This document shows positions 207 to 24,098 of a stretch of 24,358 nt of DNA, piece after piece. The notes beneath the pieces were generated by a model. It was not told the DNA's origin and ran no database searches. It saw only the letters and a list, made by a program, of their open reading frames with translations. The position numbers were made by a program, and so were the translations under genes. The stretch lies in IMG/VR virus record IMGVR_UViG_3300017528_000498, positions 1 to 24,358 of that record. One strand, written 5' to 3'. The DNA comes from a virus. Numbering within the stretch: the stretch's first letter is position 1; the number at the start of each line of letters is the position of its first letter.

Positions 207-208
207 AG

Positions 209-1597
209 CTACTCCTCTATAAGCGGAACTGGAAGATCGACATATGGGATCTTCCATCCCCTAAGTGTTTTCTTAAGTTGATAAATCATTCCTCTGAATC
301 TTTCAATGTTTTTATCATCAAAAATTACGACGATAGGCTGACGCTTATTAGGGTGTGGTCTTTGAACTCTCCCCAACATTTGTTGCAAGTCATTGGGGGA
401 ACTTAGAGGGGTAAGAATAAAAAGAGCGTCCAAGGCATCATCGCTTAGACACTCCTTGCCCAGCTTCTCGATAACAAACCCGAGCCTGCTTTCCCGTACC
501 ATTGAGATACGATCTTCTGCAGGCGTCTCAGAGATTACCAGCGCTGAAGATGGAAATTTAGTATTTAGGTTCCTTAGCAGGTCTTTGGAGTGACTGATAC
601 AAAGTATCTTGCGCCCAGAATCCAGCGCCTCACGAATGCAGAACTCCCGAAGTTTCAAGCTTCTCGGATTCGACCCAAGAGCAGTTCTAAGTTTTGAAAC
701 ACTCACCTCTCCCGCCTTATCCCTAGCTTCCTTAGAATTTTCATTGATGATGACGTCGGTCTCTTGGAAATACACTTCTGGAATCAGCGGTTGCTCGAGA
801 TCTTTGTAGAAAATGTCGCCTACGTGGTAATGGTATACCCACTGTCTCTGGTCCAGCCGATCCGCAGTTGCAGTAAGTCCAAACCGTAGGCCAGTTACAA
901 GCGGGGCTGATAGAACAAACCAGGGGGCTGATAAATGGTGAACCTCATCAAACCATACAGACCCAAACCATGACGAAAATCCTACGGGGATTTCCCCCTC
1001 TTTTGCTCGTCCGGCAAGGGTCTGTATGGTCGCTATCGTTATAGGTCGTTTCCAATCGGAGATCTGTGCCTGAAATTCCCCTATCTTCTCCCCTGAGGGT
1101 AGTGCAAGATGTTGGGCAATCTCCCCTCGCCAATGTTCTAACTGAACCCCATCATTCACAACGATTAGAGAAGGAACTCCTAGCTCAGCAATCTTTTTAA
1201 GAGCAAGGACCGTTTTGCCCTTACCACAGGCTAGATTTAGAATCCCTCCTCTGGCTTGCTGTAGAGAATCCCATGCCTTACTTTGCTCTTCTGTTCTCCA
1301 CTTTATACGATCTGTTATATGAGTACGAGTAAAGTACTGTGGAGTTAGATCTACAAAAGGAAAGCAAAAATCATTGTATTGCTCTGGTTTAAGGAACTCC
1401 CGAGGCACAATGATATGATGATCCGTCATATCCCAGAATTTGGTTAATACTGGGTCACCCTTCTTTGCTTCCCAATACTGTAAAGCATTTTGTACTGCAT
1501 CTACCCTTATCAATGCCTTCGGGAGCCACAACATGGTAGACACGTAAGCAGTGTCCGGTCGCTTCTTTACTAAGCTATATGCTTCCGTGTCATGCAT
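209..1597 (-). CDS. Superfamily 2 DNA/RNA helicase (DExH type)
   Basis: A 462-residue helicase. Motifs seen in order: an N-terminal region of about 100 residues, a Q-rich lead-in, Walker A ACGKGKT (123-129), DEVH box (217-220), motif III LTATADR (241-247), motif IV-like ILCISHS (331-337) and motif [11 protein letters not shown] (405-413). These are the two RecA-like lobes of an SF2 ATPase; the spacing and the single-lobe N-terminal extension recall phage UvsW-like and XPB-like helicases. Role inferred: ATP-driven remodelling of branched DNA or RNA in replication, recombination or repair. The start ATG has AGAGG six bases upstream. It sits between the proline-rich gene (gap of 7 bases) and the glycosylase (gap of 2), so all three are probably one operon. 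No nuclease or zinc domain is visible. Confidence 0.92.
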
Positions 1598-4668: not shown

Positions 4669-5255
4669 TCGACGATACCACTATAGATGCATTTGGTGAC
4701 GAGCTTGCCAAAATTTCAGGTATGATTGGAAACATGGGCAAGGCTATCACCCAATCCGTTCGTACGGGGTGGAACAAGCCTTTGGGACTATGGGAGAAAG
4801 CAAAGCATGTAGAAGGTCCACTGAAGGGTAAGGGTGTGATGGATGCAGCTGGAAAACAGGTCTGGAAGAAACGTCCGGATGCAACCTTTATGGGTCAAGG
4901 TAAATATACAAAGTATTTACCTATTGGGGATAAAGCGATAAATTCTGCAGTAATTGCTAGTGGTGTTCCTGGCGCGGTCGCTAAAGAAGATCCCCAAGGA
5001 GCCGGACGTTCTAGGGCGGAACGCATATCTGGTCTCGCAGGTGGAACTATTGGGATGCTCGCTGGACAAGGTGCTATGTCCCATATACCGATTAAGGGTT
5101 TGGGGATCACCCGATCTATTGTAGGAGGTTTGGGAGGCGGTATCATTGGCGAACGAATGGCTACTGGTCCCTTTCGCCGAGCTAGGGCTGAAATGCCTCC
5201 TGTTCCTCAAGCCGAACAAAGTCAACAACCAGTCCCTAATGGAGTTGCCGCGTGA
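4665..5255 (+). CDS. Gly-rich, membrane-like small protein preceding the portal
   Basis: A 196-residue protein whose ATG overlaps the previous stop (ATGA) and whose stop overlaps the portal start (GTGA), so translation is probably coupled on both sides. The N-terminus carries FGDELAKIS. The middle is basic. Residues about 124-163 form a Gly/Ala/Ile-rich stretch with small-residue packing like that of membrane-inserting or glycine-zipper segments. The tail is Pro/Gln-rich. No family is recognised. Inference: a minor virion protein, possibly one that enters or crosses the host membrane during DNA delivery. A second protein in this window (22369-23193) has a similar Gly/Ala/Ile C-terminus, which supports a shared membrane role. 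Confidence 0.7.
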   Translation: MIDDTTIDAFGDELAKISGMIGNMGKAITQSVRTGWNKPLGLWEKAKHVEGPLKGKGVMDAAGKQVWKKRPDATFMGQGKYTKYLPIGDKAINSAVIASGVPGAVAKEDPQGAGRSRAERISGLAGGTIGMLAGQGAMSHIPIKGLGITRSIVGGLGGGIIGERMATGPFRRARAEMPPVPQAEQSQQPVPNGVAA

Positions 5256-7312
5256 CAGGAACTAACGGACTGGGATTTATTGGAAACACGTCGAGATTCG
5301 ATTCGTTCCATAATCAAAATCAAAACGGTACCATGCGGTACCCAAGCCCGTTCTTTGACATCGGGCATACCTATCTCCCAACGAGCGTCAAGCAGATGTT
5401 CCGTTGGTGTAGGTACTATTTTCTCGTCAATCCATTGATCAACGCTGTCACCTACAAGATGGCAGAATACCCAATCACTAAGATACAGGTTCAGGAAGCT
5501 GATTCCGTACTCCGTGATAAGTGGACTAAATTTATTGATACGGGCTTAAAACTACGTAGTACCCTTATAGAGATTGGGTTAGATTTTCATTGCTACGGTA
5601 ACACATTCATTACACTCCACTTCCCTATTCAGAAGTATCTGATTTGCTCAAACTGCAAAGCTAAGCAGCTAGCCTCTAGAGCCATCTATAAGTTTAGAAA
5701 CTTCAGATATTACCTAGCATGTCCGAGCTGCAACGTTACTGCAGAAGCTGGTGTAGATGACCTAAATGTCAAAGATCTTCACGGTATCAAAATAGTTCGT
5801 TGGAATCCAGAGAACATCACCGTTGAGCATAATGAAGTTACGGGAAAGACCGATTACTTCTTCGACATACCTATCTCGCTAAAGAATGCGATTATGATGG
5901 GTAAGCGCCATGTCATAGAATCTATTCCTAACGAGTTCATACTGGCACTTCGAGAATCTAAGACTATCAAGTTCCGTGATGGAGAGGTTTTCCATTTTAA
6001 GCGCCCTACTCTATCCGAGAAGGATCAAGGTTGGGGAATACCTCTTATCCTACCGGTATTGAAGGATAGCTATTACCTACAGGTACTTCGTAAGGCTCAA
6101 GAATGTATTGCTCAGCAGTATATTGTTCCGTTGCGAGTGCTCTTCCCACAAGCAGGTAGTGGAACATCTGATCCTTATTCTACTATTGATCTCAGCTTGT
6201 GGCGGCGTCGTATTGAGGCAGAGATCGAGAAGTGGAAGCTAGACCAGAACTACATACCGATCCTACCTATCCCCATTGGTAACGAAACCATCGGTGGAGA
6301 GGGTAAAGCGCTGATGCTTCATCAGGAGATGAGGGCCTGGTCGGAGCAAATTGTTGCAGGCATGCATGTTCCTATTGAATTCATCTTCGGAGGATTGCAG
6401 TATTCGGGCTCAAATGTATCTATGCGGATGCTGGAAAACCAGTTCGATGGTTACCGCACAGATCTGCTTATATTCTGCCGTGACTTCGTTCTGAAGCGAA
6501 TTGCGAACTTCATGGAATGGCCCGCTCCTGATATTGAATTCTCTAGATTCCGTATGGCGGACGATCTTCAGCGTTCTGCCCTTATTATGCAGGCAAATCA
6601 GGCTATGAAGGTATCCGATACTACGTTCCTTAACGAGCTTGAGCTTGATCTGGTCCAAGAAGAGAAGTACAAGGCTTCCGAGCTTAGCAAGCAGCTGGAG
6701 AACAATCGTAAAACTCAGATCGCTAATGCTCAGCTTCAGGGTGAGCTACAGATCATCAGTGCTCGTTACCAGGCACAAGCAATGCGGATCATGGGAACTG
6801 TTGCTCCTGGGGCAATGCCTACACTTCCAAATAACCCAGGAAGCTTTGGATCAAGTGTTGGTGGGGCAACTATGGACGGGGATCCGACATCTGCTGGTAA
6901 TTCCCTTCCAGGTGGGGGACAGCCCGCCTCAGGTGCTACACAACAACCGTTACAAGGAGAACAGGCAGCACCGGGTATGCCTGAAGGCGCGACAGTTTAT
7001 CCCGAGAATGCGGACAAACCTCCAGCTGAGGGACTCCCTCCAGAAGTTCAGTCGCCTCTCAACATGACCCAAGCAGGTGGCCAGATGAACGCCTTGTATT
7101 TGGCGAGACGGGCTGCTACTGATCTTGGGAAGATGGATGGCATGCAGCGACAGCTCGCACTAATGAATCTGCAGGTTTCCAACCCCAAGCTCTCCGGAGT
7201 AGTTCTCTCGATCATGCAAGGAGAGAAGGGATCTCAGACAGATAACCTGGATCCGATGCAGAGTCCGCTGCCTCAACAGAAGCCGCCACGCAGACAAGTC
7301 TCCCTCGGCTAA
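5252..7312 (+). CDS. Phage portal protein with inserted zinc ribbon
   Basis: A 686-residue protein that would form the dodecameric DNA gate at the capsid vertex. Seen: an N-terminal segment typical of portals (FRWCRYYFLVNPLINAV, then MAEYPITKI, about 50-80), a wing/clip part with WNPENITVEHNEVTG and FHFKRP, and the helical core GMHVPIEFIFGGLQYSGSN followed by NQFDGYR and a long helix with RDFVLKRIANFM. Cysteines C132, C135, C157 and C160 make a rubredoxin-like zinc ribbon in the wing. The C-terminus from about 520 to 625 is Gly/Pro/Gln-rich and probably disordered. The start is GTG in a GTGA overlap with the previous gene. Recognised by pattern rather than a search; the alternative is another large capsid-vertex protein. 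Confidence 0.8.
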   Translation: MTGTNGLGFIGNTSRFDSFHNQNQNGTMRYPSPFFDIGHTYLPTSVKQMFRWCRYYFLVNPLINAVTYKMAEYPITKIQVQEADSVLRDKWTKFIDTGLKLRSTLIEIGLDFHCYGNTFITLHFPIQKYLICSNCKAKQLASRAIYKFRNFRYYLACPSCNVTAEAGVDDLNVKDLHGIKIVRWNPENITVEHNEVTGKTDYFFDIPISLKNAIMMGKRHVIESIPNEFILALRESKTIKFRDGEVFHFKRPTLSEKDQGWGIPLILPVLKDSYYLQVLRKAQECIAQQYIVPLRVLFPQAGSGTSDPYSTIDLSLWRRRIEAEIEKWKLDQNYIPILPIPIGNETIGGEGKALMLHQEMRAWSEQIVAGMHVPIEFIFGGLQYSGSNVSMRMLENQFDGYRTDLLIFCRDFVLKRIANFMEWPAPDIEFSRFRMADDLQRSALIMQANQAMKVSDTTFLNELELDLVQEEKYKASELSKQLENNRKTQIANAQLQGELQIISARYQAQAMRIMGTVAPGAMPTLPNNPGSFGSSVGGATMDGDPTSAGNSLPGGGQPASGATQQPLQGEQAAPGMPEGATVYPENADKPPAEGLPPEVQSPLNMTQAGGQMNALYLARRAATDLGKMDGMQRQLALMNLQVSNPKLSGVVLSIMQGEKGSQTDNLDPMQSPLPQQKPPRRQVSLG

Positions 7313-7348
7313 AAAATCTAGAAACCGTGGCATAAGGGTTGGCAAACA

Positions 7349-7372: not shown

Positions 7373-7380
7373 GTCCCTAC

Positions 7381-7385: not shown

Positions 7386-7395
7386 TCGCATTCCA

Positions 7396-10095
7396 ATGGA
7401 TATCTCTATGCTTACAGCTAAGGCAGCTAGCACCGTCAAAAAACCCGAAAGCCCAAAGTTACAACTCAAGCGGATCTTTACTACTAAAGGTGTCGACCCA
7501 CTAGACTCGATTGAGTGGGTAATCAAGGATGCCGTAATTCGCGGCGGTGGAGGTAAAGAAAAGTTCCGTCAGAATGGCGTCGAAGTCCCAGCGACGTGGG
7601 AAGATAATACGGTAGGAATTGTTGCAGAGAAGTATTTTCGGGTGGTTTTGGGAGTTAAAGAATATTCTGCGAGACAGATGTTTACGAGAGTAGCAGGCTG
7701 GATGGCTAGTAGCGGGTTTGACCAGGGGTTGTTTACCCATGAAGGTTACGAAATATTCTATGACGAGCTTTTATATTTGCTTGCTCATGGAATGTATGCA
7801 TTCAACTCTCCTGTTTGGTTCAATGTAGGAATTCAGGCAGAACCACAGTGCTCGGCGTGTTTCATCCAATCGGTTGATGACACGATGGAAAGCATCGTAG
7901 CCCTTCAGCGTAATGAAGTGATGCTGTTTAAGGGAGGATCTGGTACCGGATCCAATCTCTCCAGCCTTAGAAGTTCCTGGGAGACCCTTTCTCGAGGAGG
8001 CTATGCTTCAGGGCCTGTATCTTTTATGCGGGGATACGACTCTTGGGCAGGTGTTACTAAATCTGGTGGCGGTACTCGTAGGGCTGCCAAGCTCAGCTGC
8101 TTGAATATGGACCACCCAGATATTCTCGAGCAGATGAATGGTATGGCTGGCTTCATCACTTGTAAGTCGGATGCGGAGCAACAAGCTCATGCTCTATATA
8201 GCACTGGCAAGTACTCGGCTGAATTTAACGTCGCTGGTAATGTATACGACCGAACCTGGTTTCAGAACGCTAACCACTCAGTTCGGGTTACTGATAACTA
8301 CATGCAAGCTGTAATGGAAGATAAGACTTGGACTACTAAATTAAAGAATGGAGAAGTCCATAAACATTATGGAGCGCGCCAGCTCTTTGATGCGATTTCT
8401 GAGGCTGCTTGGGTATGTGGTGATCCCGGTATTCAGTTCGATACAGCAACCAATGCGATGCATACCTGCCCAAATGATGGGCGTATCAACGCTAGCAATC
8501 CTTGTTCAGAGTACTTATTTTTAGATGATACTGCTTGTAATCTAGGATCTTTGAATTTGATGAAGTTTCTAGATTCCGACGGTGACTTCCAAATTGAGAA
8601 CTTCCAGCAGGCTGTAAATATCGCTATTACGGCCAAGGAAATCATCGTTGACGCTTCCTCGTATCCAACCGAGATTATTGCTAAGAATAGTCGCCGATAT
8701 AGGACGCTGGGCCTCGGGTTCACTAATCTCGGTGCACTTCTTACTTTTTGGGGTTTACCTTATGATAGTGAGAATGGGCGTAAAGTCGCTAGCGCTATAT
8801 CTGCGTTGATGGGTGGCCAGGCATATCTACAATCCGCAAAACTAGCCGAGGTACAAGGACCCTTTCCAGCATACACAGATAATAAGTCAGCAATGTTGGG
8901 AGTAATCGATAAGCACCTAGAATCGGCCCGTGAATTACGGATATCGGTCAAAGATAACCCCTTTCTAGTCTTATCTTTTGCATCGCTATTTATTAATGCG
9001 GAGAACGCATGGATTGACGCATATAATGCTGGTGATGGTTACGGATTCCGTAATGCTCAAACTACGGTTATAGCCCCAACAGGAACTATATCGTTTTTGA
9101 TGGGAGCTGATACAACCGGTATAGAGCCTATGCTTGGAGTCGTTACCTATAAGAAAGCTGTCGGGGAAGGTTTTCTAATTCTTCCGAACAATACTATTGC
9201 TCCCGCCTTGGTAAGACTTGGATATAGCTCGGACGCAATTGCTCGCATTCTCCAGCACATAATTGATAAGCAGAACATTCATACTGCTCCGGATTTCAAC
9301 AAGAAACACAGCCCTATTTTTGCTGAAGCCCTTGGCGAGTGGGCACTTAGGCCAGAAGCTCATGTGGATATGATGGCTGCTGTTCAGCCATTTATATCGG
9401 GGGGCATCTCCAAGACCGTTAATATGCCTAACAAGGCTACGAAGGAGGAGATTGGCGAGATCTATGTGAGGGCTTGGAAGAGCGGTCTCAAGTGTGTTGC
9501 GGTATATCGTGATGGCTGCAAGATGTCCCAGCCCATATCCACAAAGGTGGATGAGAAAAAGGAATCTCCTCTCCTTTGGGGATCCCGAAAGAAACTGTCG
9601 AAGACCCGAGAAGGCAAGACCCACTCGTTCAGGGTTGGTGATGTCGAGGGATACCTAACAGCTAATACTTATCCAGATGGCACCCTAGGAGAAATATTTG
9701 TTCGAGTCTCTAAGCAGGGCAGCTTCGTTGGTGGAATCGTAGATTCATTCGCCATAAACTTCTCTATGGCACTGCAAGCAGGAACTCCTCTCGATAGCCT
9801 AGTTGATAAGTTCAAGGGTACACGATTTGACCCTTCTGGATTTACTGGGGATGGTCGGATACCTATTGCTACGAGCATTCTCGATTATATTGTTAGATGG
9901 TTGGAGCTAGAGTTTTTGAAACCAGCTGAGCCTTCGGAGTCTACAGAAATCATAGTAGGTAAACAGGTTCCTAGGGCTTCCATACCTGTAATAGACTTAT
10001 CGGGTAATCCTTGCCGCACATGTGGTGGGCTTACCAAAAGAACCGGAGCTTGTTACACCTGCACTTCGTGCGGTGATACTACTGGCTGCGGATGA
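7396..10095 (+). CDS. nrdJ: Adenosylcobalamin-dependent (class II) ribonucleotide reductase
   Basis: An 899-residue enzyme that reduces ribonucleotides to deoxyribonucleotides for phage DNA synthesis, using a thiyl radical generated from adenosylcobalamin. Seen: the family N-terminus; FNSPVWFNVG then CSAC with C155 as first redox Cys; GSGTGSNLSSL; NPCSE with the radical Cys at C370 flanked by N368 and E372; the second redox Cys C381 in ACNLGSLN; PTGTIS at 561; a TSCPD-type domain at about 736-845; and a Cys-rich C-terminus (CRTCGG...CYTCTSCGDTTGCG) that should re-reduce the active site. Full length with no broken motif. No ATP-cone is evident at the N-terminus and no cobalamin riboswitch fits in the short leader. 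It lies between two terminators, so it is likely its own unit or fed by read-through. The phage depends on host-supplied cobalamin. Confidence 0.96.
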   Translation: MDISMLTAKAASTVKKPESPKLQLKRIFTTKGVDPLDSIEWVIKDAVIRGGGGKEKFRQNGVEVPATWEDNTVGIVAEKYFRVVLGVKEYSARQMFTRVAGWMASSGFDQGLFTHEGYEIFYDELLYLLAHGMYAFNSPVWFNVGIQAEPQCSACFIQSVDDTMESIVALQRNEVMLFKGGSGTGSNLSSLRSSWETLSRGGYASGPVSFMRGYDSWAGVTKSGGGTRRAAKLSCLNMDHPDILEQMNGMAGFITCKSDAEQQAHALYSTGKYSAEFNVAGNVYDRTWFQNANHSVRVTDNYMQAVMEDKTWTTKLKNGEVHKHYGARQLFDAISEAAWVCGDPGIQFDTATNAMHTCPNDGRINASNPCSEYLFLDDTACNLGSLNLMKFLDSDGDFQIENFQQAVNIAITAKEIIVDASSYPTEIIAKNSRRYRTLGLGFTNLGALLTFWGLPYDSENGRKVASAISALMGGQAYLQSAKLAEVQGPFPAYTDNKSAMLGVIDKHLESARELRISVKDNPFLVLSFASLFINAENAWIDAYNAGDGYGFRNAQTTVIAPTGTISFLMGADTTGIEPMLGVVTYKKAVGEGFLILPNNTIAPALVRLGYSSDAIARILQHIIDKQNIHTAPDFNKKHSPIFAEALGEWALRPEAHVDMMAAVQPFISGGISKTVNMPNKATKEEIGEIYVRAWKSGLKCVAVYRDGCKMSQPISTKVDEKKESPLLWGSRKKLSKTREGKTHSFRVGDVEGYLTANTYPDGTLGEIFVRVSKQGSFVGGIVDSFAINFSMALQAGTPLDSLVDKFKGTRFDPSGFTGDGRIPIATSILDYIVRWLELEFLKPAEPSESTEIIVGKQVPRASIPVIDLSGNPCRTCGGLTKRTGACYTCTSCGDTTGCG

Positions 10096-11884: not shown

Positions 11885-11891
11885 AAGGAGG
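11885..11891 (+). promoter_or_regulatory. Strong Shine-Dalgarno site fixing the GTG start of RNA polymerase
   Basis: AAGGAGG lies eight bases before GTG at 11900. It supports this non-ATG start and suggests high translation. Confidence 0.85.
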
Positions 11892-11899: not shown

Positions 11900-14800
11900 G
11901 TGTCTACGCCAGATATTACTTGGAAAGAGCTTCAGTCCGGGGCTGTTGATGCAATCAAGAGCACGTTTCCTATTGAAGGAAGAACCCGGTCACTTGTTCT
12001 GAATAACGTCAACATCGATGACAGCGGTGCTGTAATTGGGGATCTCCGAAGTCAAGAGCGTGCTAAAGAGACTAATCGAACTTGGGGCGCTAACGTTGTA
12101 GCCGATATCAGTCTAGTCGATAAGGCAACCGGCAATGTAATTGATCGTTCGAAGACCAAGATCTTTACATTACCCAGACCCACAGAGCGATATAGTTATA
12201 TTGTCGACGGGAGTGAGTGGCAGGTGGATAACTTATGGCGCTTGAAGCCTGGCGTATATTCTCAGATCAAGGCTAACGGAGAGCTTGAGACCGAATTCGC
12301 TCTTGCAGGAGCGTCATTTGCTAAAGAGTCTCGCTTGAAGATTCCGTTCAGCCCTGAGAATAAGAAATTCAAATTTCGTTGGGGTACTACCAACATCAAC
12401 TTATACCCCATTCTGAAGACCCTCGGTGTTCAGGATGAGGAAATGAAGAAGGCATGGGGTCCTGATATCTATAAGGCTAACTCAACAGCCAAGATAGAGC
12501 AGGACATCCTGAAGCTCTATAAGGGTATTTCTAAGCGAGGTGTAAAAGCAGAGAACTCTTCGTACGATGCCATAGCAGCGGCAGTTTTTAAAGAATTTCA
12601 CAATGCTGAGCTAGCTCCTGACACTACTAAGCATACTCTCGGTAAGCCTATTAGTCACGTTACAGGAGAAGCACTGCTTCTTGCCTCGAAGCGGATCTTG
12701 GACGTTGCGCAGGGAATAACGCCTCCAGATGATCGGAACTCTCTAATATTCAAGAAGCTTACAGGAGTAGACGACTTCTTAAGAGAGAGACTGTCGAAGT
12801 CATCCACCCAACGAATCATTAAGCTGAAGGTTGGTAACAATATAGATAGAGCAGACAAGGTACGAGACATTTTATCATCAGAACTATTCTCGAAACCTAT
12901 CAAGCAGATATTTACTAACTCTTCTCTATCTAAGAATCCAGAACAGACTAATCCGCTTGAAATGATATCTAACTATCGCTCGACCACTATTCTAGGTGGT
13001 GATGAGGGAGGCATCAAGAGTGACCGTACGCTCAACAAACAGATGAAGTTGATCAACCCCACGCACATGGGGTTTTTGGATCCTATCCACACACCAGAGA
13101 GTGTTCGAACAGGTATCAGCCTTACTCTTCCTCTAGGAGTCACGAAGGACGGCAACGAAGCCCGAGCTACGGTTTACGATCTCAAAGAGCATAAAGTTTT
13201 AGAGGGCAAGAAAGGATTGACCCCTGCAGAGCTACATTCCGAGTTCATCTTGCTTCCGGATCAGGTAAGGATGAAGGATGGTAGACCTGTACAACCAAAG
13301 AACCTAGTCAAGATGAAGGACCCAGAGACGGGAGAGATTGTTCTGCGTCCAATGAAAGATGCGAGATACATGTTTGTATCCCCACATCAATTGTTTGATG
13401 AGGCAACTAATCTAATTCCGTTCTTACAGAACAATCAAGGTAACCGAACAATGACCGCCTCTCGTCAGGCATCGCAAGCGGTGGGATTGAGAGATAGAGA
13501 AGTACCCCTTGTGCAGGTACAAGGAGGTAATACTACTTGGGAGCACCTAATTGGTATACCGTTCTCTCAGACTGCTCCAACAGCGGGTAAAATCTTAGCT
13601 ATAAAATCCGATCAATCAGATAATCGATTCCCTGATTCTATTGTACTTCAGGATAAGGGCGGTAAGAAGCACGAGATACAACTCTATAATCACTTTCCGC
13701 TTAACGATACAAAGACCTTTATGCATTCGATACCTAAAGTGCAAGTAGGACAAGAAGTTAAGGAAGGCGATCTATTGGCGGATACGAACTTCACGAGAGA
13801 CGGTAAACTAGCGCTTGGTACGAATCTTAGAGTCAGTTATATGCCATATAAGGGATATAACTTCGAAGACGGTATCGTAATATCCCATAGTGCTGCACAG
13901 AAGCTCACCTCAGAGCACGTTCATCGGAAGTCTATAGAGATCGATCCTACTAAGGATTCGATGAACAAGAAGAAGTTTCAGGCATTCTCCTCGGTGACCG
14001 CTAAAAAGTATGGAAAGACTCAACTGGACCGTCTAGATGATGATGGGGTTATTAGGATAGGTGAAAAAGTTAGTCCTGGGGATTTGTTGATTGCTGCTGT
14101 GGGTAAGAAGGAAAACTTAGGAATGGTGACTCGTCTGGCCGCTAGGCTAGATAAGAGCCTATTCGATCGTACCGATCGCAGTGTTTCTTGGGATGGTAGT
14201 GCAGCAGGAGAAGTTGTAAAGGTTCAAAAGCTTGCTAATGGGAAAGGAGCCGTAGTTCACGTTAGGACCGATGAGCCTGCTGAGGTAGGAGACAAGATTG
14301 TTGGTCGGCACGGCAACAAGTGTTTTGATGAGAATACTGAAGTGCTTACTGATATAGGATGGAAGAAGTTTTCTTCATTAAATAGAACTGAATGTATTGC
14401 TACACTTAATCAAAATACTTTCCAGATTGAATATCAACTTCCGACTGCCTATGTCGCCGAAAGTTACAACGGCAAAATGTATCGTTTCCAGGGACGTAGG
14501 TTGGATTTATTGGTAACTCCAAATCACAATCATTTCGTTAGAGGACGTTCTGATAGAAGCAAGGAAGAAGGAAAATGGAGATTAGAATCAGCCGAATCTT
14601 GCTTTGGTAAGCAGAGAGTTCATCTTAGAACTGGAGAATGGAATCCTGTAGTTGATTGTGATGTTATTACAATTCCAGGACGCCCACATGAACCTCATCA
14701 ACATTACGAGTTTTCCAAGCCTAAGATGTATGATGCAGACGATTTTTTGGAGTTCTTTGGTTATTGGGTAACGGAAGGATGCATTAGTGATTCTAAAGTA

Positions 14801-17800
14801 CTTGTTGCACAACGTAAGGAAGTTAACCCAGAAACGTATGAGCAAATAAGAGTCTGTTTAATCCGATTAGGATATGAGCCGTGGTGCTACCCCGACACTC
14901 TTGGATTTTCAGATCCTAGATTAGCCCACTGGTTATCAAAATTTGGGAAGGCTAGGGACAAATACATTCCTAGATCATTCCTCTCTACAAATAAACGGCA
15001 GCTTAAGATTTTAGCTGATGCTTGTTTTGCAGGAGACGGAGGAAATTACTATAGGGAAAAAGATAATCACACTCGTTATGAACTATTTACTTCGTCAAAA
15101 AGGTTAGCTGATGATTATCAAGAACTTGCTTTCAAATTAGGGATGTCAGCTAATATTAAGGAGGCAGCTGAAGGTAGAAAAGTAGTTAGATTCTCTTTAA
15201 ATCCAGAAGTCTGGACCACTAAAGACGTTCGATATGGAGAAAAGGAGAGCTGGGTAGAATATAATGGGATGATCTACTGTGTGGAAGTCCCAAATCATAT
15301 TATCTACATACGTCGAAACGGTATTCCTGTATGGAGCGGTAACTCTATCGTTACCCAAATAATACCCGACCACGAAATGCCTAGAATTGGAACACCTGAT
15401 GGACAGCATGTAGAAGTATTGATGAACCCGTCTGGTGTGCCGAGCCGTATCAACTTAGGTCAAATGCTAGAGACTGCGGCATCCAAAATAGCTGTTAAAA
15501 CCGGAAAACCATATATCGTAAATAACTTCGATAGCGTGAATACCGAGGACTATACTGAAAAGGTTAAGCAAGACCTTAAGGACCACGGTCTTACCGACAC
15601 TGAAGAGATTTACGATCCGGTTACTCATAGAAAATTAGGTGATGTTCTGACTGGAGATCAGTACATCATGAAGCTGAAGCACCAAGTTGAAAAGAAGTTG
15701 GCAGTTAGAAGCACTGCTAACTATACAATCGATCGAGCACCTAAGGGCACAGGTTCTGAGAATCCAGGACAAGGTATCGGCCAGCTCGAGTTCTACGCCT
15801 TATTAGCCCACGGTGCTCGTAAGAACTTGAAGGAGATGGCGACGTATAAGGCAGATCAACAAGTAGATGAGCGGTTGAATCCACAAGCTCATATTGATTT
15901 CTGGCACCGGGTTCAAATGGGCCAGCCCCTTCCAGCTCCACGACCGACTTTCGCCTATCGCAAATTCGAGTCCTATCTTAATGGTCTAGGTATCAACGTC
16001 CGTAAAGAAGGACATGAAATGCAATTGACACCTCTAACAGATAAAGGTGTCCTTGCTATGTCCAATGGTGAGATAGAGGATCCTGGACGGGTCTTGCGTG
16101 GAAAAGATGCCAAGGAGTTGGAGAAAGGTCTGTTTGATCCAAAAGTTACTGGAGGACTCCCTGACTCCAATGAGCCAGGTAAAGGATTGAACTGGGCACA
16201 TATTACTCTTGCTCGCCCAATGCCTAGTCCTATTTTTGTCGGTACGGCTCAGAAGCCAGGGCCAGCAGTGATACTAACTGGGCTAAAGTTTAATGAGTTT
16301 GAGGATATCGTTAAAGGCAAGAAGACATTGAATGGTAAGACTGGAGGAGAGGCAATTAAAGAAGCCCTCGATGGGGTGAATGTTAAAAAAGAACTCAGCA
16401 AGGTGATGGCAGAACTTCCAGAACTACGAGGTAGTGCCCTTAATCATGCAAACCGTAAAGCAAAATATTTACGGTCTTTGGATTCTTTGAACATGAAGCC
16501 GAGCGAGGCTTATATGATGAATCACGTACCAGTGATTCCTCCTGTCTTCCGCCCCATTGTACCGATGCCAGATGGATCTCTCCGATTTGATGACATCAAC
16601 CACCTATATAAAGATCTAGGTATAGTAAATAACAAACTCAAAGAGGGTGTTAAGGATCTTCCTGAGGTGGAGCAGCCCCTACGCGAAGAGTTATATGACT
16701 TGCTTAAGTCAACGATGGGTGTTGGTGGAATACCTCAGTATGAATCGAGCCGTAAGCTCAAGGGTATTCTAGATACGATCGCAGGGACGAGTCCTAAGCA
16801 GGGGTTCTTTCAAAAGAAACTCATGAAGCGTCGGCAAGAACTCTCCATGCGTTCGACAATTATTCCAGAGCCAGCTATGCACCTTGACTATGTCGGTATT
16901 CCACGTAGTGCGGCCATGGAACTATACAAACCCTTCGTCATCCGTGAACTAAAGGGGGTTGGCAGGAGTCCTCTGGAAGCTCGTAAAGATCTAAAAGAAG
17001 AAACTCCAGCAGCTTGGCGTGCTTTAGAGAAAGCTCTAGAGAGTCGACCGATTCTACTTAAGCGAGATCCAGCGCTCCATAAATTCTCCATTATGGCTTT
17101 CAAACCTAAGCTGGTAGATGGGAAAGCTATCCGAATTCATCCTTTGGTGACTTCTGGATTCAATGCAGATTTCGACGGGGATACTATGAGCGCCTTCCTT
17201 CCGCTAACCGATGATGCGGTACGAGAAGCACATAAGATGTTCCCTTCTAATAACCTATTCAGTTCCACCAATGGCGGAATCATGTATGCGCCCTCTCAGG
17301 AATCACTCCTGGGACTTCACCTATTGTCGAAGTGGGGCAAAGAGTCAGACAAGAAATATCAAAACTTTGACCAGGCAAGAAAGGATTACGATAAAGGATC
17401 TTTACCAGCAAATGAGGTAGTTTCAGTTAATGGTAAAAGGACAACTTATGGGCGCCGCCTTCTCGCTAATGCCTTACCTAAGGAATACCAAACAGATCAG
17501 CTTCTATATGACCCTCATCTGGTTATTTCAAAGAAAGGCGTTAGCTTAAAGAGATCCTCGGATACCGATAATGGAGAATCCGCTTCCTCTGCTATTGGAA
17601 TTCTAAGCCTGCTTTCCGATATCGGTAAAAAGGATCCTAAGAAATTTGCTAATACCGTCGATCGCCTTAAAGATATCGGTAACAAACATGCGTACGATGT
17701 CGGATTCTCTCTCAGCCTAAACGACTTGAAAGTTCACAAGGACATCAGGAATTCCATATTGGATAAGGCTGATGAAGAGGCAGCAACTATCCGTAAATCG

Positions 17801-19261
17801 TCCGCCAGTACACAAGATAAAGAAGATAAGTTGGTAACTCTATATGATGGAGCTAGCCATGCTATGGACAAGGCTATTCGGCCTCTCATCGAGAAGAGTC
17901 ATAACAACATTTACACAATGGTAGACTCTGGTGCTCGCGGTAACTGGTCGCAGTTTAGACAAATGAATATCGCTCCGATGATCATGCAAGACGCTACAGG
18001 GCGTAAGCTACCAACCCCGGTAAAGAGATCTTATTCAGAAGGTCTTGATGTTGGAGATTACTGGACAGCATTGCATGGCGCCCGAATGGGTACTCTGCAG
18101 CGTGCAGAAGGAACCTCCGAACCAGGAATGCTAACGAAAGACATCATCAACTTCGTTATGCCAGAAATGATAGTCTCTCATGAGTGTGGGACTAAAGAAG
18201 GCATATCCATGAGCATCAATGACGAAGATGTTCATGATCGTCTATTGGCGAAACCAATATCAGTCGGAGGACAGAAATTTGATCGTAATACAATAGTAAC
18301 ACCTGCGATGACTTCTCTTCTGAAGAAAAATCGTATTGACCAAATTGTGGTTAGAAGTCCATTAAAGTGTCAACATGGGCTTGGTATTTGCTCAAAATGT
18401 TTTGGACTTAATGAGAATGGTGTTGAACATGAGATTGGGACCAATATCGGAGTTATCGCGGGGCACTCCTTGGGCGAGCCGGCGATGCAGTTGGCTATGG
18501 ATAGCTTTCATACTGGTGGTGTTTCAGGTTCTCGCGGTGCTGGTGCGACGACGCGGATCGGACGACTAAAAGAATTGCTAAAGCTCCCAGCTAAACTCCC
18601 AGATTCAGCTACGCTGGCAAGAACTAGTGGTAAGGTAGATAAAATAGAGAAAGACCCGACTGGTTGGAACATCTATATCAACGGTCAGCCACACTTTGCC
18701 CCAGCTACTCGGAAACTTCTGTACGACAATAAGCCTCTAGAAGTAGGAATGTCTGTAAAGAAGGGATCTCCTATCACAGAAGGCCCTATTAACCCCCGCG
18801 ACCTGCTTCCTCTCACAGATGTTCCAACAGTTCAGAATCATCTTGTGAGTGAACTTTACGACGGTATCTATAAAGACGAGCGTGTTCGTCGTAGAAACAT
18901 AGAGATGATTGTCCGTTCTCTGACTAATCTATCTCAGATTCGAGATCCGGGTGATACTTCTGGGTTTATGACTGGAGACGTGGTTAGCCGTTCTCTAATA
19001 GAGGAACACAACCGAAATCTAGAGCCCGGCCATCGACCTATAGATTCCCGTCCCGTATTAAAAGGAATGGAACAAGGAGTTCTCGATACTCAAGAAGATT
19101 GGCTTGCCAGACTCAACTTCCGTCGTCTAAAAGAAACAGTTATGGAAGGTGCTGCTAAGGGATGGAAGACTAACATTCACGGGACTCATCCAGTCCCAGC
19201 CTACGCATTCGGAAGTGAGTTCGGAGAAGGCACTAAGCGCGAACCATGGAAGTATGGTTAG
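11900..19261 (+). CDS. rpoBC: Single-chain beta-beta' DNA-dependent RNA polymerase with intein
   Basis: 2453 residues, about 2112 after intein removal. Beta part (1 to about 1370 with intein): RYSYIVDGSEWQVDNLWRLK (family N-terminus), rifampicin-pocket-like block around 345-366, GTNLRVSYMPYKGYNFEDG from 640, GDKIVGRHGNK ending at 807, and after the intein DGQHVEVLMNPSGVPSR. Beta' part from SNGEIEDP (1388): GLFDP at 1410, WAHITLARP at 1432, VIPPVFRP, catalytic NADFDGD (1755-1761, three Mg-binding Asp), MVDSGARGN at 2007, second zinc site C2096, C2157, C2164, C2167, trigger-loop His 2204, and a full-looking C-terminus. The N-terminal beta' zinc ribbon is missing and the two subunits meet without a long linker. 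Mature length is well below the sum of E. coli beta and beta'. No alpha, omega or sigma gene is in the window. The next gene starts after three bases. Confidence 0.95.
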   Translation: MSTPDITWKELQSGAVDAIKSTFPIEGRTRSLVLNNVNIDDSGAVIGDLRSQERAKETNRTWGANVVADISLVDKATGNVIDRSKTKIFTLPRPTERYSYIVDGSEWQVDNLWRLKPGVYSQIKANGELETEFALAGASFAKESRLKIPFSPENKKFKFRWGTTNINLYPILKTLGVQDEEMKKAWGPDIYKANSTAKIEQDILKLYKGISKRGVKAENSSYDAIAAAVFKEFHNAELAPDTTKHTLGKPISHVTGEALLLASKRILDVAQGITPPDDRNSLIFKKLTGVDDFLRERLSKSSTQRIIKLKVGNNIDRADKVRDILSSELFSKPIKQIFTNSSLSKNPEQTNPLEMISNYRSTTILGGDEGGIKSDRTLNKQMKLINPTHMGFLDPIHTPESVRTGISLTLPLGVTKDGNEARATVYDLKEHKVLEGKKGLTPAELHSEFILLPDQVRMKDGRPVQPKNLVKMKDPETGEIVLRPMKDARYMFVSPHQLFDEATNLIPFLQNNQGNRTMTASRQASQAVGLRDREVPLVQVQGGNTTWEHLIGIPFSQTAPTAGKILAIKSDQSDNRFPDSIVLQDKGGKKHEIQLYNHFPLNDTKTFMHSIPKVQVGQEVKEGDLLADTNFTRDGKLALGTNLRVSYMPYKGYNFEDGIVISHSAAQKLTSEHVHRKSIEIDPTKDSMNKKKFQAFSSVTAKKYGKTQLDRLDDDGVIRIGEKVSPGDLLIAAVGKKENLGMVTRLAARLDKSLFDRTDRSVSWDGSAAGEVVKVQKLANGKGAVVHVRTDEPAEVGDKIVGRHGNKCFDENTEVLTDIGWKKFSSLNRTECIATLNQNTFQIEYQLPTAYVAESYNGKMYRFQGRRLDLLVTPNHNHFVRGRSDRSKEEGKWRLESAESCFGKQRVHLRTGEWNPVVDCDVITIPGRPHEPHQHYEFSKPKMYDADDFLEFFGYWVTEGCISDSKVLVAQRKEVNPETYEQIRVCLIRLGYEPWCYPDTLGFSDPRLAHWLSKFGKARDKYIPRSFLSTNKRQLKILADACFAGDGGNYYREKDNHTRYELFTSSKRLADDYQELAFKLGMSANIKEAAEGRKVVRFSLNPEVWTTKDVRYGEKESWVEYNGMIYCVEVPNHIIYIRRNGIPVWSGNSIVTQIIPDHEMPRIGTPDGQHVEVLMNPSGVPSRINLGQMLETAASKIAVKTGKPYIVNNFDSVNTEDYTEKVKQDLKDHGLTDTEEIYDPVTHRKLGDVLTGDQYIMKLKHQVEKKLAVRSTANYTIDRAPKGTGSENPGQGIGQLEFYALLAHGARKNLKEMATYKADQQVDERLNPQAHIDFWHRVQMGQPLPAPRPTFAYRKFESYLNGLGINVRKEGHEMQLTPLTDKGVLAMSNGEIEDPGRVLRGKDAKELEKGLFDPKVTGGLPDSNEPGKGLNWAHITLARPMPSPIFVGTAQKPGPAVILTGLKFNEFEDIVKGKKTLNGKTGGEAIKEALDGVNVKKELSKVMAELPELRGSALNHANRKAKYLRSLDSLNMKPSEAYMMNHVPVIPPVFRPIVPMPDGSLRFDDINHLYKDLGIVNNKLKEGVKDLPEVEQPLREELYDLLKSTMGVGGIPQYESSRKLKGILDTIAGTSPKQGFFQKKLMKRRQELSMRSTIIPEPAMHLDYVGIPRSAAMELYKPFVIRELKGVGRSPLEARKDLKEETPAAWRALEKALESRPILLKRDPALHKFSIMAFKPKLVDGKAIRIHPLVTSGFNADFDGDTMSAFLPLTDDAVREAHKMFPSNNLFSSTNGGIMYAPSQESLLGLHLLSKWGKESDKKYQNFDQARKDYDKGSLPANEVVSVNGKRTTYGRRLLANALPKEYQTDQLLYDPHLVISKKGVSLKRSSDTDNGESASSAIGILSLLSDIGKKDPKKFANTVDRLKDIGNKHAYDVGFSLSLNDLKVHKDIRNSILDKADEEAATIRKSSASTQDKEDKLVTLYDGASHAMDKAIRPLIEKSHNNIYTMVDSGARGNWSQFRQMNIAPMIMQDATGRKLPTPVKRSYSEGLDVGDYWTALHGARMGTLQRAEGTSEPGMLTKDIINFVMPEMIVSHECGTKEGISMSINDEDVHDRLLAKPISVGGQKFDRNTIVTPAMTSLLKKNRIDQIVVRSPLKCQHGLGICSKCFGLNENGVEHEIGTNIGVIAGHSLGEPAMQLAMDSFHTGGVSGSRGAGATTRIGRLKELLKLPAKLPDSATLARTSGKVDKIEKDPTGWNIYINGQPHFAPATRKLLYDNKPLEVGMSVKKGSPITEGPINPRDLLPLTDVPTVQNHLVSELYDGIYKDERVRRRNIEMIVRSLTNLSQIRDPGDTSGFMTGDVVSRSLIEEHNRNLEPGHRPIDSRPVLKGMEQGVLDTQEDWLARLNFRRLKETVMEGAAKGWKTNIHGTHPVPAYAFGSEFGEGTKREPWKYG
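14321..15343 (+). mobile_element. Intein with LAGLIDADG homing endonuclease in the RNA polymerase beta part
   Basis: A 341-residue in-frame intein, residues 808-1148 of the precursor. Seen: Cys1 in CFDENTEVLTDIGWK (block A), TPNH at 873-876 (block B), endonuclease block C EFFGYWVTEG with E959, block E AGDGG with D1046, block F VEVPNHIIYIRRNG with H1133, and a terminal Asn 1148 followed by Ser as the +1 residue. The penultimate residue is Gly rather than the usual His, a known tolerated variant. Both endonuclease acidic residues are present, so mobility may be intact. It splits GRHGNK from SIVTQI, right after the active-site lysine. Two sampled 60-base lines of the intein have about 32% G+C against roughly 40-53% in sampled flanks, in keeping with separate origin. 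Confidence 0.95.
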
Positions 19262-19264: not shown

Positions 19265-20377
19265 ATGAGTGCAAATCCAAAACCAGTACGTTCCCCGAGT
19301 ATGGCCAAAGATTCGAGTCTCCTTATGGGGGCTCTTGTGGAACGTGCTCGAGTAGTCAATGTCAACATTCGAGACTATACGGTCGATGTAAAGACGGAGT
19401 TCAGCTTCAAGAATCGATTCGACATACCCATCATGGTCCCCTACTGTAACCAAGTGCAGGGAGAGGGGACTAATTTCCTACCAGAGGTTGGAGCCGTATG
19501 TTGGATATGTACTTCATCGGAAGATGGGCGTGACTCCTTTGTACTTGGATTTACGATGGTCGATGAAGGTGGATCCTATCGAGGAGGTAGGGCACTCTTA
19601 AATCCAGGTGATATTCACTACAGTACTCGAGATGGTAACTTTTTGGTATTACGAAGAGGAGGGGTAGTTCAGATAGGATCAACTGCTATATGCCAACGAG
19701 TATTCATTCCTATTAGAAATATCATCCAAGATTTTGCTGAAAACTATGAGCTGCACACTCCGGGTGGAGATCTGACTTGGCAAACTGCCCGGAAGGATGA
19801 AGATTCTGACGGTCATCAGATGTGCCTGTTTACCTTAGCTACTAAAGAATTTGCGGATGATCCAAATGACAAGACCGTAGCGGTCTTGAAAATGGGTTCC
19901 CACGGTCAAGGAACCGACACTATTCTTAGCATGCTAACCCGTGACAAAGGCGGGGGAATCACCCAGACCCTACTTGAGATAGATAAATCAGGGCAATTTA
20001 ATCTGAAGGTTAAAGGCTTAGACCTCAAAGTAGAAGGTGATTTGGGAGCTACTATTACGGGACAAGCAACTCTGAAAGTAACAGGACCCCTAACGATACA
20101 ATCCATGGCAGCTATTAATGCAACAGCTAGTTCCATTGCTTTGACGGCAGGAAATGTATCGCTAGCCCTGTCATCTAGCGGGGGTACTATAGATGGTCCA
20201 CAATTCACAATTGCTGGAGGACAGTTTCCTCCTCTACGTGCTTCCCCAGACATGTTAGCTTGGATGGGAGTAGTTACTGCCGCTATTAATGGGGGAACTC
20301 CTGGCCACCCAGTAATATCTGTTGGCCCCGCCCTTGTTCCTCCATCCCAGCACATAAACCCGAAAGTAAAAATATGA
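19265..20377 (+). CDS. Baseplate/tail-spike protein with OB fold and beta-helical C-terminus
   Basis: 370 residues, starting three bases after the polymerase stop and ending in an ATGA overlap with the next gene. Seen: an N-terminal beta-barrel-like part (about 22-97; alternating hydrophobic strands, VPYCNQ, PEVGAVCWI, FVLGF), followed by NPGDIHYSTRDGNFLVLRRG, a phrase common in gpV/gp5-like hub proteins. From about 243 a run of short strands with alternating hydrophobics (KVKGLDLKVEGDLGAT and onwards to 318) looks like a triple beta-helix spike. The C-terminus is polar and Pro-rich. Family knowledge: such trimers form the membrane-puncturing tip of contractile tails. No lysozyme domain is seen between OB fold and helix. 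Confidence is by pattern, not search. Confidence 0.78.
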   Translation: MSANPKPVRSPSMAKDSSLLMGALVERARVVNVNIRDYTVDVKTEFSFKNRFDIPIMVPYCNQVQGEGTNFLPEVGAVCWICTSSEDGRDSFVLGFTMVDEGGSYRGGRALLNPGDIHYSTRDGNFLVLRRGGVVQIGSTAICQRVFIPIRNIIQDFAENYELHTPGGDLTWQTARKDEDSDGHQMCLFTLATKEFADDPNDKTVAVLKMGSHGQGTDTILSMLTRDKGGGITQTLLEIDKSGQFNLKVKGLDLKVEGDLGATITGQATLKVTGPLTIQSMAAINATASSIALTAGNVSLALSSSGGTIDGPQFTIAGGQFPPLRASPDMLAWMGVVTAAINGGTPGHPVISVGPALVPPSQHINPKVKI

Positions 20378-22365
20378 ATCCCGCCCCTTTATTTTTTGAC
20401 AGTCGTGTAAAGGTACGCTTCGAAAAGGTGGCGTCTCCTATCAAGTTGTCTGACAATGTAGATAACTGGCAAAGAGAGGTCAGTTCGGAGATATTCAAAT
20501 ATCTACCATTCTTATCTAACTACTCTGTTAACGTCTTGATTCAGAGAGCTAACCCAGAGCGCGGATATGCTTATGGCAGTGCCCAGGTCATGAATAAGGC
20601 GGAAGGTATAGAATCGGGTCAAGCTACTCCGGTGGTAATACCTATTATCATCGTCGATCGAATGCTAAAGCCTCTGGATGTGTTCTTCACAGGAGATAAA
20701 GCATACCCTCTGAATGAAGAGCGAGTTCGAGAAGCTCTATTCGACCCTCGAACCTTTGAACTATCGGATCGAAAACCCACTGATCAAGGAATGGTAGATA
20801 GCCTCTACCCTCCGATTCGGACAAATTACGGCTATGGCTCTGGTGTAACTACAGGAGCTGCTGCCGGAGGTGCCGGATTTGGTAAGTTTGCAAGTTTAGC
20901 CTCCGCTATCTCATCTACTATTACCGACAGTGAAGCAACTACTTTCATCGAGCGTCTCGTTGATGATTTTCAGCTATCCACCGCGATTGAAGTAAACCCC
21001 GCTTTCAGGAAGGCAGCCTCGGCAATCATATCGGCCGATAGAGTTCCACTACAGAAAACGGCAATGGCCCTTGTTGAAGCTATTGAGCCTACTGTAGTTC
21101 AATTTACTAAGCTAGCGGATGGTAATTTTAGAGTGAAGTGGGCCAATGCAGATGCTTTCTCCCCACAGGAGAAAAACTTCACTCCATCTGAGGCGCAGCA
21201 GATGGCCGGTACAGAATCTGTACAAAAGATGAAGCCCGACCAATCTGTAACCATGGGGACTGGAGCGGCTAACCCTCCCCTTGATACTCCTCACGTTGTT
21301 CAAATTCAAGAGTTTGGCCAATACACGGTCCGTATTGAGGAAACAGGCCAAGATTCTGTAGGATGGGTATTACCGGTAGTAAATTTCGATCAGAACCCTA
21401 TGGGGCTTATGCTGTTCACAAACGGTGAAAGCTACAGCCTTCAGGATGAGATGGTCGGATCACGTGTTGGTGATGACATCTCACAGATTCCTATTGGTGA
21501 GCCTCATGGTGATGGTGCATTTTTTTACGCCAAGTCAGATGGTACAGCTGTCTCCCTTCCGGCAGTAACTATCCAAAACTCTGTTACAGATCCAGAAGGT
21601 AATATAGGGTATTTGTGCCAGACTCCATTTGGTGAGCAGATAACTCTCCATTTAACCCCCTCACTCGAGGCTATCCAAAAGATCTCTGATTCAGAGTACG
21701 CAATTCCTCAGGATATGCTGTTCTCTCCTCTAGGATCTGCCATTCATGTTGCCAAGTCGCTCTACACGGAATCGAAGGTCAAAGAAGCGAGAGCCCTTCC
21801 GACACGTGGTTTCCTTAGAGGAACCGGAGTTGATGAGTTTCATCTAGAGGGCCAGCCATTCTCGAAACTAGCCTCGGATGTTAGATATTGGATAAACCCA
21901 AGGCAGACGGAATTTTTACTTGTAGCTGCCGGGCTTGACCAAGAAACTGCTAGGGAAAAAATTGCTGAGGCTGGTAAAGGTCGTAAGGCAGTTGAAATTG
22001 ATGGATTGAATACTATAACGCCTTTAGATCAGGTACATCAGGATATGACGAAGAAGGCAGCTGAGATTTTGAAGGATTTCCCGTACCATCTACGTAGAGA
22101 CCTAATAAAAATTGCAGCTACACTTGAGGATACAGAGACTGCTGATAACATCTTGTCTCTAAACTTCCTCAACCCAGAAAACATATCCATCTTTGCATCC
22201 TACTTGCCTCAGCTAAATGATAGCTCACAGAAGCTAGCCGAGATGTTAACAGCCTCTCGAATGGGTCTGAAGCAACTAGATGAGGGAGCATTGGAAAGAG
22301 CGATGCTTAATTTGGAGGAAGTAATCCGCGGACTAAAAGGTCTGCAGCAGAGGGAGCTGCTGTAA
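20374..22365 (+). CDS. Large hypothetical virion protein
   Basis: 663 residues, ATG overlapping the previous stop. No recognised family. Seen: an N-terminal globular part (1-160) with VVIPIIIVDRMLKPLDVFF; a Gly/Ala-rich hinge (about 153-172, TGAAAGGAGFG); a helical stretch; a beta-rich middle (about 310-455); and a long helical C-terminus (about 500-663) rich in Lys, Ala, Glu and Leu. There is no catalytic signature, signal peptide or strong membrane segment. Placement between spike and C39-like peptidase suggests a tail or internal virion protein. The KLA/KIA phrase recurs in the helical parts (FSKLASD, KIAATLE, QKLAEML). Certain as a gene; function unknown. Confidence 0.8.
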   Translation: MNPAPLFFDSRVKVRFEKVASPIKLSDNVDNWQREVSSEIFKYLPFLSNYSVNVLIQRANPERGYAYGSAQVMNKAEGIESGQATPVVIPIIIVDRMLKPLDVFFTGDKAYPLNEERVREALFDPRTFELSDRKPTDQGMVDSLYPPIRTNYGYGSGVTTGAAAGGAGFGKFASLASAISSTITDSEATTFIERLVDDFQLSTAIEVNPAFRKAASAIISADRVPLQKTAMALVEAIEPTVVQFTKLADGNFRVKWANADAFSPQEKNFTPSEAQQMAGTESVQKMKPDQSVTMGTGAANPPLDTPHVVQIQEFGQYTVRIEETGQDSVGWVLPVVNFDQNPMGLMLFTNGESYSLQDEMVGSRVGDDISQIPIGEPHGDGAFFYAKSDGTAVSLPAVTIQNSVTDPEGNIGYLCQTPFGEQITLHLTPSLEAIQKISDSEYAIPQDMLFSPLGSAIHVAKSLYTESKVKEARALPTRGFLRGTGVDEFHLEGQPFSKLASDVRYWINPRQTEFLLVAAGLDQETAREKIAEAGKGRKAVEIDGLNTITPLDQVHQDMTKKAAEILKDFPYHLRRDLIKIAATLEDTETADNILSLNFLNPENISIFASYLPQLNDSSQKLAEMLTASRMGLKQLDEGALERAMLNLEEVIRGLKGLQQRELL

Positions 22366-23201: not shown

Positions 23202-24098
23202 ATGCCCAGCATAATGCTTCCTCCCAAGATCGATAGTCGTCATCCTTCTGAGTACTTTGTCAAGTACCTTTTAACCTTACCTCAGCCAGAAGCACAGGAT
23301 GACAATTGGATAAGAGCTGGAGTTAATAGTATTGGGTATCCTCCACCATCTGTCCCATACATATCGATATTACGTCAGGTTTTGCGCAACGATTTACCCG
23401 TGGATTATGATCCATTCAATAGATACAACCGGCAAACTACGAAGTTTTTGAGAAACCATGGAGTGTGGGCTCTCCATAATCCTGGAGAAGATACCAAAGA
23501 ATCTACTAGACTTCTCAATGAGCCCCCCATCCGGAAAGTGGTAGAACAGCTTTTGCTGGGGCGTCTAGAATCGAAAGAGATCGCTAGTCGTGTAAACAGT
23601 CGATTCAAAAGGTTCTACACCGCAGATACTATCTCTGATTACAGTCACTATTTTTGGAACTGTAGCTTAATGAAGACTAGTGACTGGGTGACCTTCTTTG
23701 ATATGTACGATCGCCCAGAGCAGTCCAAGAACTTGTCTATTGTCAATGGCGGTAGTGGAATGGCTCTACACATTGCTGGCTTTAAGCAAGAGATGGAGTC
23801 AAAAGAGATTCTTCGAGATATGCTAGAAGCCATCAACTTTGACTTCAAGGATTGGAAGAACTCTCCTCGCTCAATGGAACGTACTCGTGCCTATTCTATG
23901 CTTGCTAAGGCCGTTAAAGATATAGATGAGCGTATGTCCGAGTCCAGCACTGCTATTAGAGATCACCTTGCGCTATTCAAGAATTGGCAGATGGCTCATA
24001 ATCAACAGACAGTCAAAGGTATCGAAGACGTTGCTCCCAATGGAAATTTTAGTGATTCTGGGTTTGAGCTTAAAGAATTACCGGAGAAGGCTAAATGA
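23202..24098 (+). CDS. Hypothetical protein with possible helix-turn-helix
   Basis: 298 residues, all soluble. The region 113-155 (VEQLLLGRLESKEIASRV... to SHYFWN) has the spacing of a helix-turn-helix followed by a Tyr/Phe/Trp-rich helix, a pattern seen in small terminase subunits and other phage DNA-binding proteins. The C-terminal half is helical and charged (about 195-270). It begins nine bases after the peptidase stop with a weak ribosome site and ends in an ATGA overlap with the following gene. Inference: DNA packaging or DNA-binding factor. Not certain, since no homologue can be named from sequence alone. Confidence 0.72.
   Translation: MPSIMLPPKIDSRHPSEYFVKYLLTLPQPEAQDDNWIRAGVNSIGYPPPSVPYISILRQVLRNDLPVDYDPFNRYNRQTTKFLRNHGVWALHNPGEDTKESTRLLNEPPIRKVVEQLLLGRLESKEIASRVNSRFKRFYTADTISDYSHYFWNCSLMKTSDWVTFFDMYDRPEQSKNLSIVNGGSGMALHIAGFKQEMESKEILRDMLEAINFDFKDWKNSPRSMERTRAYSMLAKAVKDIDERMSESSTAIRDHLALFKNWQMAHNQQTVKGIEDVAPNGNFSDSGFELKELPEKAK

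Follow-up and report, generated by a model that had tools for sequence, protein, structure and literature searches.

The window analysed here, an IMG/VR metagenomic fragment of 24,358 nt, carries an open reading frame (11900..19261; plus strand, as for all coordinates below unless marked minus) in which a bacterial-type RNA polymerase beta subunit is followed directly by beta'. The gene would encode a complete, phage-owned core RNA polymerase as one polypeptide. We give a probability of about 65% to the reading that this single-chain phage core enzyme is carried in the virion, matured by intein removal and free of alpha and omega. The gene belongs to a large group of tailed phages, most of them uncultured, that encode both big polymerase subunits as one protein, with the partner subunits undetected, and whose more than 100 distinct sequences can still be aligned residue by residue to the bacterial enzymes. 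Phage-encoded bacterial-type polymerases are known, and what appears to be new is that a whole family shares the one-chain architecture; searches of the open literature turned up no description of such a phage polymerase with fused beta and beta'.

Architecture of the polymerase chain and its intein

The reading frame has no internal stops and encodes 2,453 aa, intein included. A Shine-Dalgarno-like AAGGAGG (11885..11891), read from the sequence, precedes the GTG start by 8 nt; GTG is likewise the start codon in the relatives L005 and L006, and the alignment runs from the first residues. The Pfam matches follow the order Rpb2_3, Rpb2_6 (8e-53) and then Rpb1_1 to Rpb1_5, with a LAGLIDADG domain splitting beta. 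Aligned with the E. coli, Enterococcus and Acinetobacter subunits, beta and beta' are colinear with the bacterial proteins almost end to end, beta' following E. coli beta' as far as its C-terminal region, and the identity to bacterial beta is about 28 to 30%. Beta is composed of an N-terminal extein (aa 1-807; 11900..14320), whose last residues are the catalytic GRHGNK, and a C-terminal part assigned by alignment (aa 1149-1371; 15344..16012), and beta' (aa 1372-2453; 16013..19258) is assigned by alignment, profile and fold model. The subunits are joined directly, with no linker, at about aa 1371/1372, where the beta end (...GLGINVRKEG) runs into the beta' start (HEMQLTPLTDK...), which aligns about 15 residues into E. 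coli beta'.

The catalytic Asp triad NADFDGD (aa 1755-1761; 17162..17182) is recognized by motif and alignment, and a degenerate DNA pattern for it has one match in the window and none in 100 shuffles. The trigger-loop SFHTGG with the His of the catalytic step lies at 18503..18520 (FHTGG being aa 2203-2207), and the alignment also locates the bridge-helix region SEGLDVGDYWTALHGARMGTL (18035..18097) and zinc-binding domain 2 with its four cysteines retained (18176..18391). At the position of the bacterial beta' zinc-binding domain 1 (ZBD1) the alignment shows GGLPDSNEPGKGLNW (16151..16195), and the domain is absent. When 35 phage chains are combined into a profile of the C-terminal 1200 residues, its PDB hits are bacterial beta' chains, with E values down to 2e-226; a PDB search from an alignment that includes bacterial rows would be circular and is left aside here. 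The AlphaFold model of aa 1254-2453 (pLDDT 87.7, pTM 0.86) reaches a TM-score of 0.78 to bacterial beta', its match to the viral proteins of BFVD being poorer. The initial annotation had read beta motifs followed by beta' motifs in one frame, with NADFDGD and the trigger-loop His present, and Pfam, alignment, PDB profile and fold all agree with it. Its description of the two subunits as complete holds for their near-full length and colinearity, but not for ZBD1 and the first 15 or so E. coli beta' residues, which have no counterpart in the window.

The active site is strictly conserved in the family: beta K1065, K1073 and R1106 and beta' D460, D462, D464 and R425 are invariant in all 34 representatives, the trigger-loop H936 is retained in 33 of them, and 31 keep the cysteines of ZBD2. 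None of 44 phage chains of the family has the four cysteines of ZBD1. The clamp-helix residues R275 and E295 of E. coli beta', which contact sigma in bacteria, are invariant in the 29 bacteria compared; they are replaced by V and L in the window and unconserved across the family. Canonical sigma dependence, considered as a candidate, is weakened by these replacements. The rifampicin-site residues differ as well, with the equivalents of S531, H526 and D516 changed.

The insert that interrupts beta is 341 aa long (aa 808-1148; 14321..15343) and has Cys1, TPNH, two LAGLIDADG-type motifs, a terminal Asn and a Ser at the +1 position. It sits right after the catalytic lysine, between GRHGNK and SIVTQ. 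In the closest relative, L005 (85% identical), which has no intein, GRHGNKSIVTQ is uninterrupted, so that the insertion in the window is a clean one. A profile from six such inserts matches the VMA, PI-PkoII and NrdHF inteins, and the model of the window insert (pLDDT 87) has a HINT/endonuclease fold and matches the TliVMA intein (E 6e-19), while a PDB sequence search with the insert alone was uninformative. Judged by all the sequence and fold features looked for, aa 808-1148 is a LAGLIDADG intein. We infer that this predicted intein is self-splicing: after translation it would excise itself and GRHGNK would be ligated to SIVTQ, restoring the active centre in a chain predicted to have 2,112 aa.

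About 15 distinct chains of the family carry inteins, one or two each and mostly at active-centre sites. These lie between TPE and C, around GRHGNK, behind NADFDGD and, within the trigger loop, between FH and TGG. Recurrent active-centre inteins are seen at loci L065, L081, L086, L188, L190, L248, L257, L034, L076, L062, L057, L083, L080 and L075. The chain of L009:4901-11398 (P0009), in which beta is fused to an N-terminal part of beta' (beta'N), has an intein at the site between TPE and C and also, inside beta, an inorganic pyrophosphatase domain (PF18823; E 5.6e-19, aa 1152-1274), making it a polymerase with its own pyrophosphatase.

Distribution and phylogeny of the family

The IMG/VR scans do not support a view of the fused polymerase as a one-off: it belongs to a large phage family with cultivated and partly split relatives (Salmonella phage Arash and Vibrio phages D69, D148 and D181). 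A scan with an alignment of five relatives returned 264 related places, and a second scan, with divergent members as query, at least 389; a scan of viral_contigs from the Rhizobium phage beta' gave no relatives. We classed 192 loci, the window and the isolates included, and 143 of them (119 distinct sequences) carry an unbroken chain, of about 1900 to 2200 aa without inteins and 2300 to 3006 aa with them. The remainder comprises 18 loci cut by a contig end and 31 that are otherwise arranged. Three entries filed as phages (OR846602.1, CAKLQH020000005.1 and AFYI01000006.1) have an ordinary bacterial rpoB-rpoC and are apparently host DNA.

Most of the 31 make up the Arash/D69 branch, where either a beta+beta'N fusion is accompanied by a separate gene for the C-terminal part of beta' (beta'C), as in the isolates Arash and D69, or beta, beta'N and beta'C are three genes. 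Some loci of this branch have an extra break inside beta; in D181 the break is occupied by a homing endonuclease. Other breaks are found in four contigs. The three-gene loci (L272, L276, L279, L281, L282, L283 and L286) are nested in the Arash branch, and their later cut falls at the old beta/beta' joint. On the larger tree, with L270 correctly labelled, the joint changes twice, and the simplest reading, with the bacteria as outgroup, is one fusion followed by one fission. The family connects the intact bacterial enzyme to the split phage enzymes, as one clade has the chain whole, cut or cut twice, first after the beta' barrel, which is the phiKZ/cyanobacterial split site, and then at the beta/beta' joint.

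Between the window and L005 and L006 synonymous sites are saturated (proportion 0.76-0.89), and nonsynonymous change is 0.09-0.21 in beta, the junction and beta'. Because synonymous change is saturated and nonsynonymous change stays low across the joint, the whole chain is under purifying selection, and selection on the single-chain polymerase gene is near certain. In a metagenomic fragment of 24,358 bases one might suspect that two bacterial genes had been brought together by misassembly or misbinning, but the fusion recurs in many independent contigs with conserved phage neighbours, and isolated phages share the beta/beta' joint. We discarded an assembly accident because the 143 loci carry the same unbroken chain; the 119 distinct chains and the saturated synonymous change with the frame kept rule it out, and we give it almost no credence.

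The main tree, calculated over 1986 columns, compares 48 phage chains with 29 bacteria from many phyla, and it places the phage family and the bacteria on opposite sides of one branch with 100% SH-aLRT. An LG+C20 mixture tree of 46 rows gives the same separation, the sampling of both trees being without Helicobacter, Wolbachia and mReC sequences. In the LG+C20 tree it is not clear that the single-chain members form a clade of their own apart from the Arash branch, and the joint is present on both sides. The YerA41-type polymerase groups with the family on a branch of 1.6, which may be long-branch attraction, and we build nothing on this grouping.

Helicobacter and Wolbachia have naturally fused RpoBC, cellular enzymes that use alpha, omega and sigma and have one chain in the same order, and the NCBIfam models of these fusions are among the best matches of the window. 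The scores are, however, only about one-tenth of the cut-offs (NF007172, 534.8 against 5372 bits; NF011417, 461.5 against 4632 bits), and the models for the separate subunits also stay below theirs (RpoB TIGR02013, 292 against 801 bits; RpoC TIGR02386, 533 against 963.5 bits). The phage family lies outside all sampled bacteria, which argues against a host rpoBC fusion having been copied recently. On the model scores and on trees whose bacteria include neither genus, we reject a host-derived fusion of the Helicobacter or Wolbachia type and regard its recent capture as extremely improbable. Contrary to what a copy from one host genus would give, the gene nests in no sampled bacterial group.

Comparison with known polymerases

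The closest characterized systems are Arash (Gp206 plus Gp216) and the Vibrio phages D69, D148 and D181, which share with the window a homologous chain, the same beta/beta' joint, the missing ZBD1 and an adjoining homologous portal. The difference lies in beta', which is whole in the window but in the Arash/D69 type is divided behind the double-psi barrel, with the remainder encoded by a second gene; the phiKZ split site after the barrel (PMC7598289) recurs in the Arash branch. We read Arash Gp206 as beta+beta'N and Gp216 as beta'C. In the passages searched of the Arash paper (PMC10585845), Gp206 is annotated as "beta" and its fusion of beta with beta'N goes unmentioned.

The mReC phages, published in 2020, are tailed phages whose beta and beta' resemble the bacterial subunits and branch outside the bacteria (PMC7481178). 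They share with our family the NADxDGD motif and a phage polymerase branch outside the bacteria (the mReC sequences not being in our tree), and the metagenome of locus L218 (3300017989) is the source of two mReC examples. The mReC text reports neither a one-chain fusion nor inteins, fusion being mentioned there for crAssphage only (PMC7481178). The mReC capsid family PF07068 was found in none of 29 related records, with a positive T4 control, although the window may stop short of the capsid gene, and among the mReC contigs one was detected in just 8 of 97 (PMC7481178); PF07068 is present in three phages with other, non-fused polymerase genes. The family likely overlaps mReC, but we do not equate the two because PF07068 disagrees, even though the motif and the shared metagenome agree.

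The phiKZ-type enzymes lack alpha and omega and consist of four or five chains (PMC7598289). The phiKZ and AR9 polymerases are two-barrel phage enzymes without alpha and omega, as here, but they are multi-chain and far more divergent. The design first noted as unlike the phiKZ type is confirmed, with one open reading frame in the window and in the 143 loci as against four or five chains. The crAss-like polymerase, YonO and P23-45 gp64/gp96 carry both barrels on one polypeptide, as here, and the crAss and P23-45 gp96 enzymes are virion-borne. This class is highly divergent from cellular subunits (PMC10770324), whereas the window chain is a near-full bacterial-type beta plus beta' and matches cellular subunit models strongly (Pfam, NCBIfam, PDB).

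Yersinia phage GN1/YerA41 and Cobetia phage Carin-5, which have a two-gene polymerase beside a sigma factor gene, resemble the window in having bacterial-like beta and beta', but ZBD1 is kept, the genes are separate and in the order beta'-beta, the motif is NLDYDGD, the tree branch is long and PF07068 is present. The loci L097 and L098 show this two-gene phage polymerase (beta' then beta) with NLDYDGD, and in Carin-5 the adjoining sigma factor is an annotated one.

Partner subunits, virion genes and proposed mechanism

As far as is known, every cellular multisubunit polymerase is assembled on an alpha dimer. Neither RpoA nor RpoZ/Rpb6 was found in 22 large family records, three isolated phages among them, with positive controls that worked, although these records may not be whole genomes and a strongly diverged alpha could escape detection. 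The earlier suggestion that a single chain may do without alpha and omega fits this result, and an active core without them is likely. The alpha dimer normally nucleates beta-beta' assembly and would not be needed for it here because beta and beta' are already tethered; through the tether, the crab-claw core would fold without the alpha dimer or omega.

Of the 22 records, 12 show a match to region 2 or region 4 of sigma, and no sigma-like domain was found in the other 10. In the 191-kb contig of a 70%-identical relative the matching protein has 155 aa and contains just region 4. The phage chain could borrow host alpha or omega, and it might even borrow host alpha, omega or sigma and serve the host enzyme as an exchangeable beta-beta' module, as the near end-to-end alignment with bacterial subunits and the 10 records without a sigma-like domain would allow. 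The low identity to bacterial beta, the loss of the sigma-clamp residues and ZBD1, the tether that makes alpha unnecessary and the phages' own sigma-like proteins in 12 records speak against such a module, which we consider improbable.

The polymerase gene of the window is placed among virion genes. Upstream lies the gene of a 686-aa portal protein (5252..7312), a homologue of Arash gp204 (probability 100) with counterparts in 96 of 128 loci. The downstream neighbour is a conserved spike/baseplate-like gene (19265..20377; 84 of 128 loci), followed by homologues of the Arash virion protein gp218 (20374..22365; profile probability 99.4, 99 of 128 loci; PMC10585845) and of Arash gp219 (23202..24098; profile probability 97, 73 of 128 loci). 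The polymerase had been described as standing beside portal and spike genes; the portal is secured by its gp204 homology, while the spike label derives from a baseplate match that is weak (E 7e-4). The gene order portal, polymerase, structural genes is common to the window and Arash. In Arash virion preparations, published mass spectrometry yielded more spectra for Gp206 than for any other protein, the major capsid protein included, and also detected Gp216, the sigma factor Gp10, the portal and gp218 (PMC10585845). The synteny of portal, gp218 and gp219, together with these spectra, points to a virion polymerase, and delivery of the single-chain enzyme in the virion is likely by analogy.

The Arash authors name two explanations for the virion polymerase, early transcription or carry-over from abundant expression (PMC10585845). 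Carry-over would suit a non-virion single-chain enzyme that transcribes middle or late genes after infection, with host polymerase reading the early genes, like the phiKZ nvRNAP. All 22 large records have one polymerase locus each, as against the virion and non-virion enzymes of phiKZ-type phages, which also suits this reading. It is set against the conserved place between portal and virion-protein genes and the leading rank of the Arash polymerase in the virion spectra, and we hold it possible but rather doubtful.

In the virion-carried reading that we prefer, the enzyme would be produced among virion genes, packed into the particle and carried to the next cell, where early phage genes would be transcribed with a phage-coded, probably non-canonical, initiation factor. 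We infer catalysis, splicing, packaging in the single-chain clade and the initiation factor. At somewhat less than even odds we propose, for the family, a crab-claw polymerase of one chain without alpha, omega and canonical sigma-clamp contact, which would be delivered by the virion and in some members switched on by splicing at the active centre. A natural one-chain polymerase would be a minimal enzyme with which to probe the roles of alpha, omega, ZBD1 and the sigma-clamp contact.

The other genes of the window include an XPB/Rad25-like SF2 helicase (209..1597, minus strand). Its profile match to Arash gp217, which is encoded next to beta'C, is a partial one (94.7). A Rad25-type helicase accompanies phiKZ-type polymerases (PMC7824862), and the helicase of the window is a possible polymerase accessory. 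A class II (B12-dependent) ribonucleotide reductase of 918 aa (7339-10095) lies between portal and polymerase, a place that it takes in 4 of 128 loci. A protein with a C39-like cysteine peptidase domain (22369-23193) is encoded within the virion block, and the start of a uracil-DNA glycosylase superfamily gene (3-257, minus strand) is truncated at the contig end.
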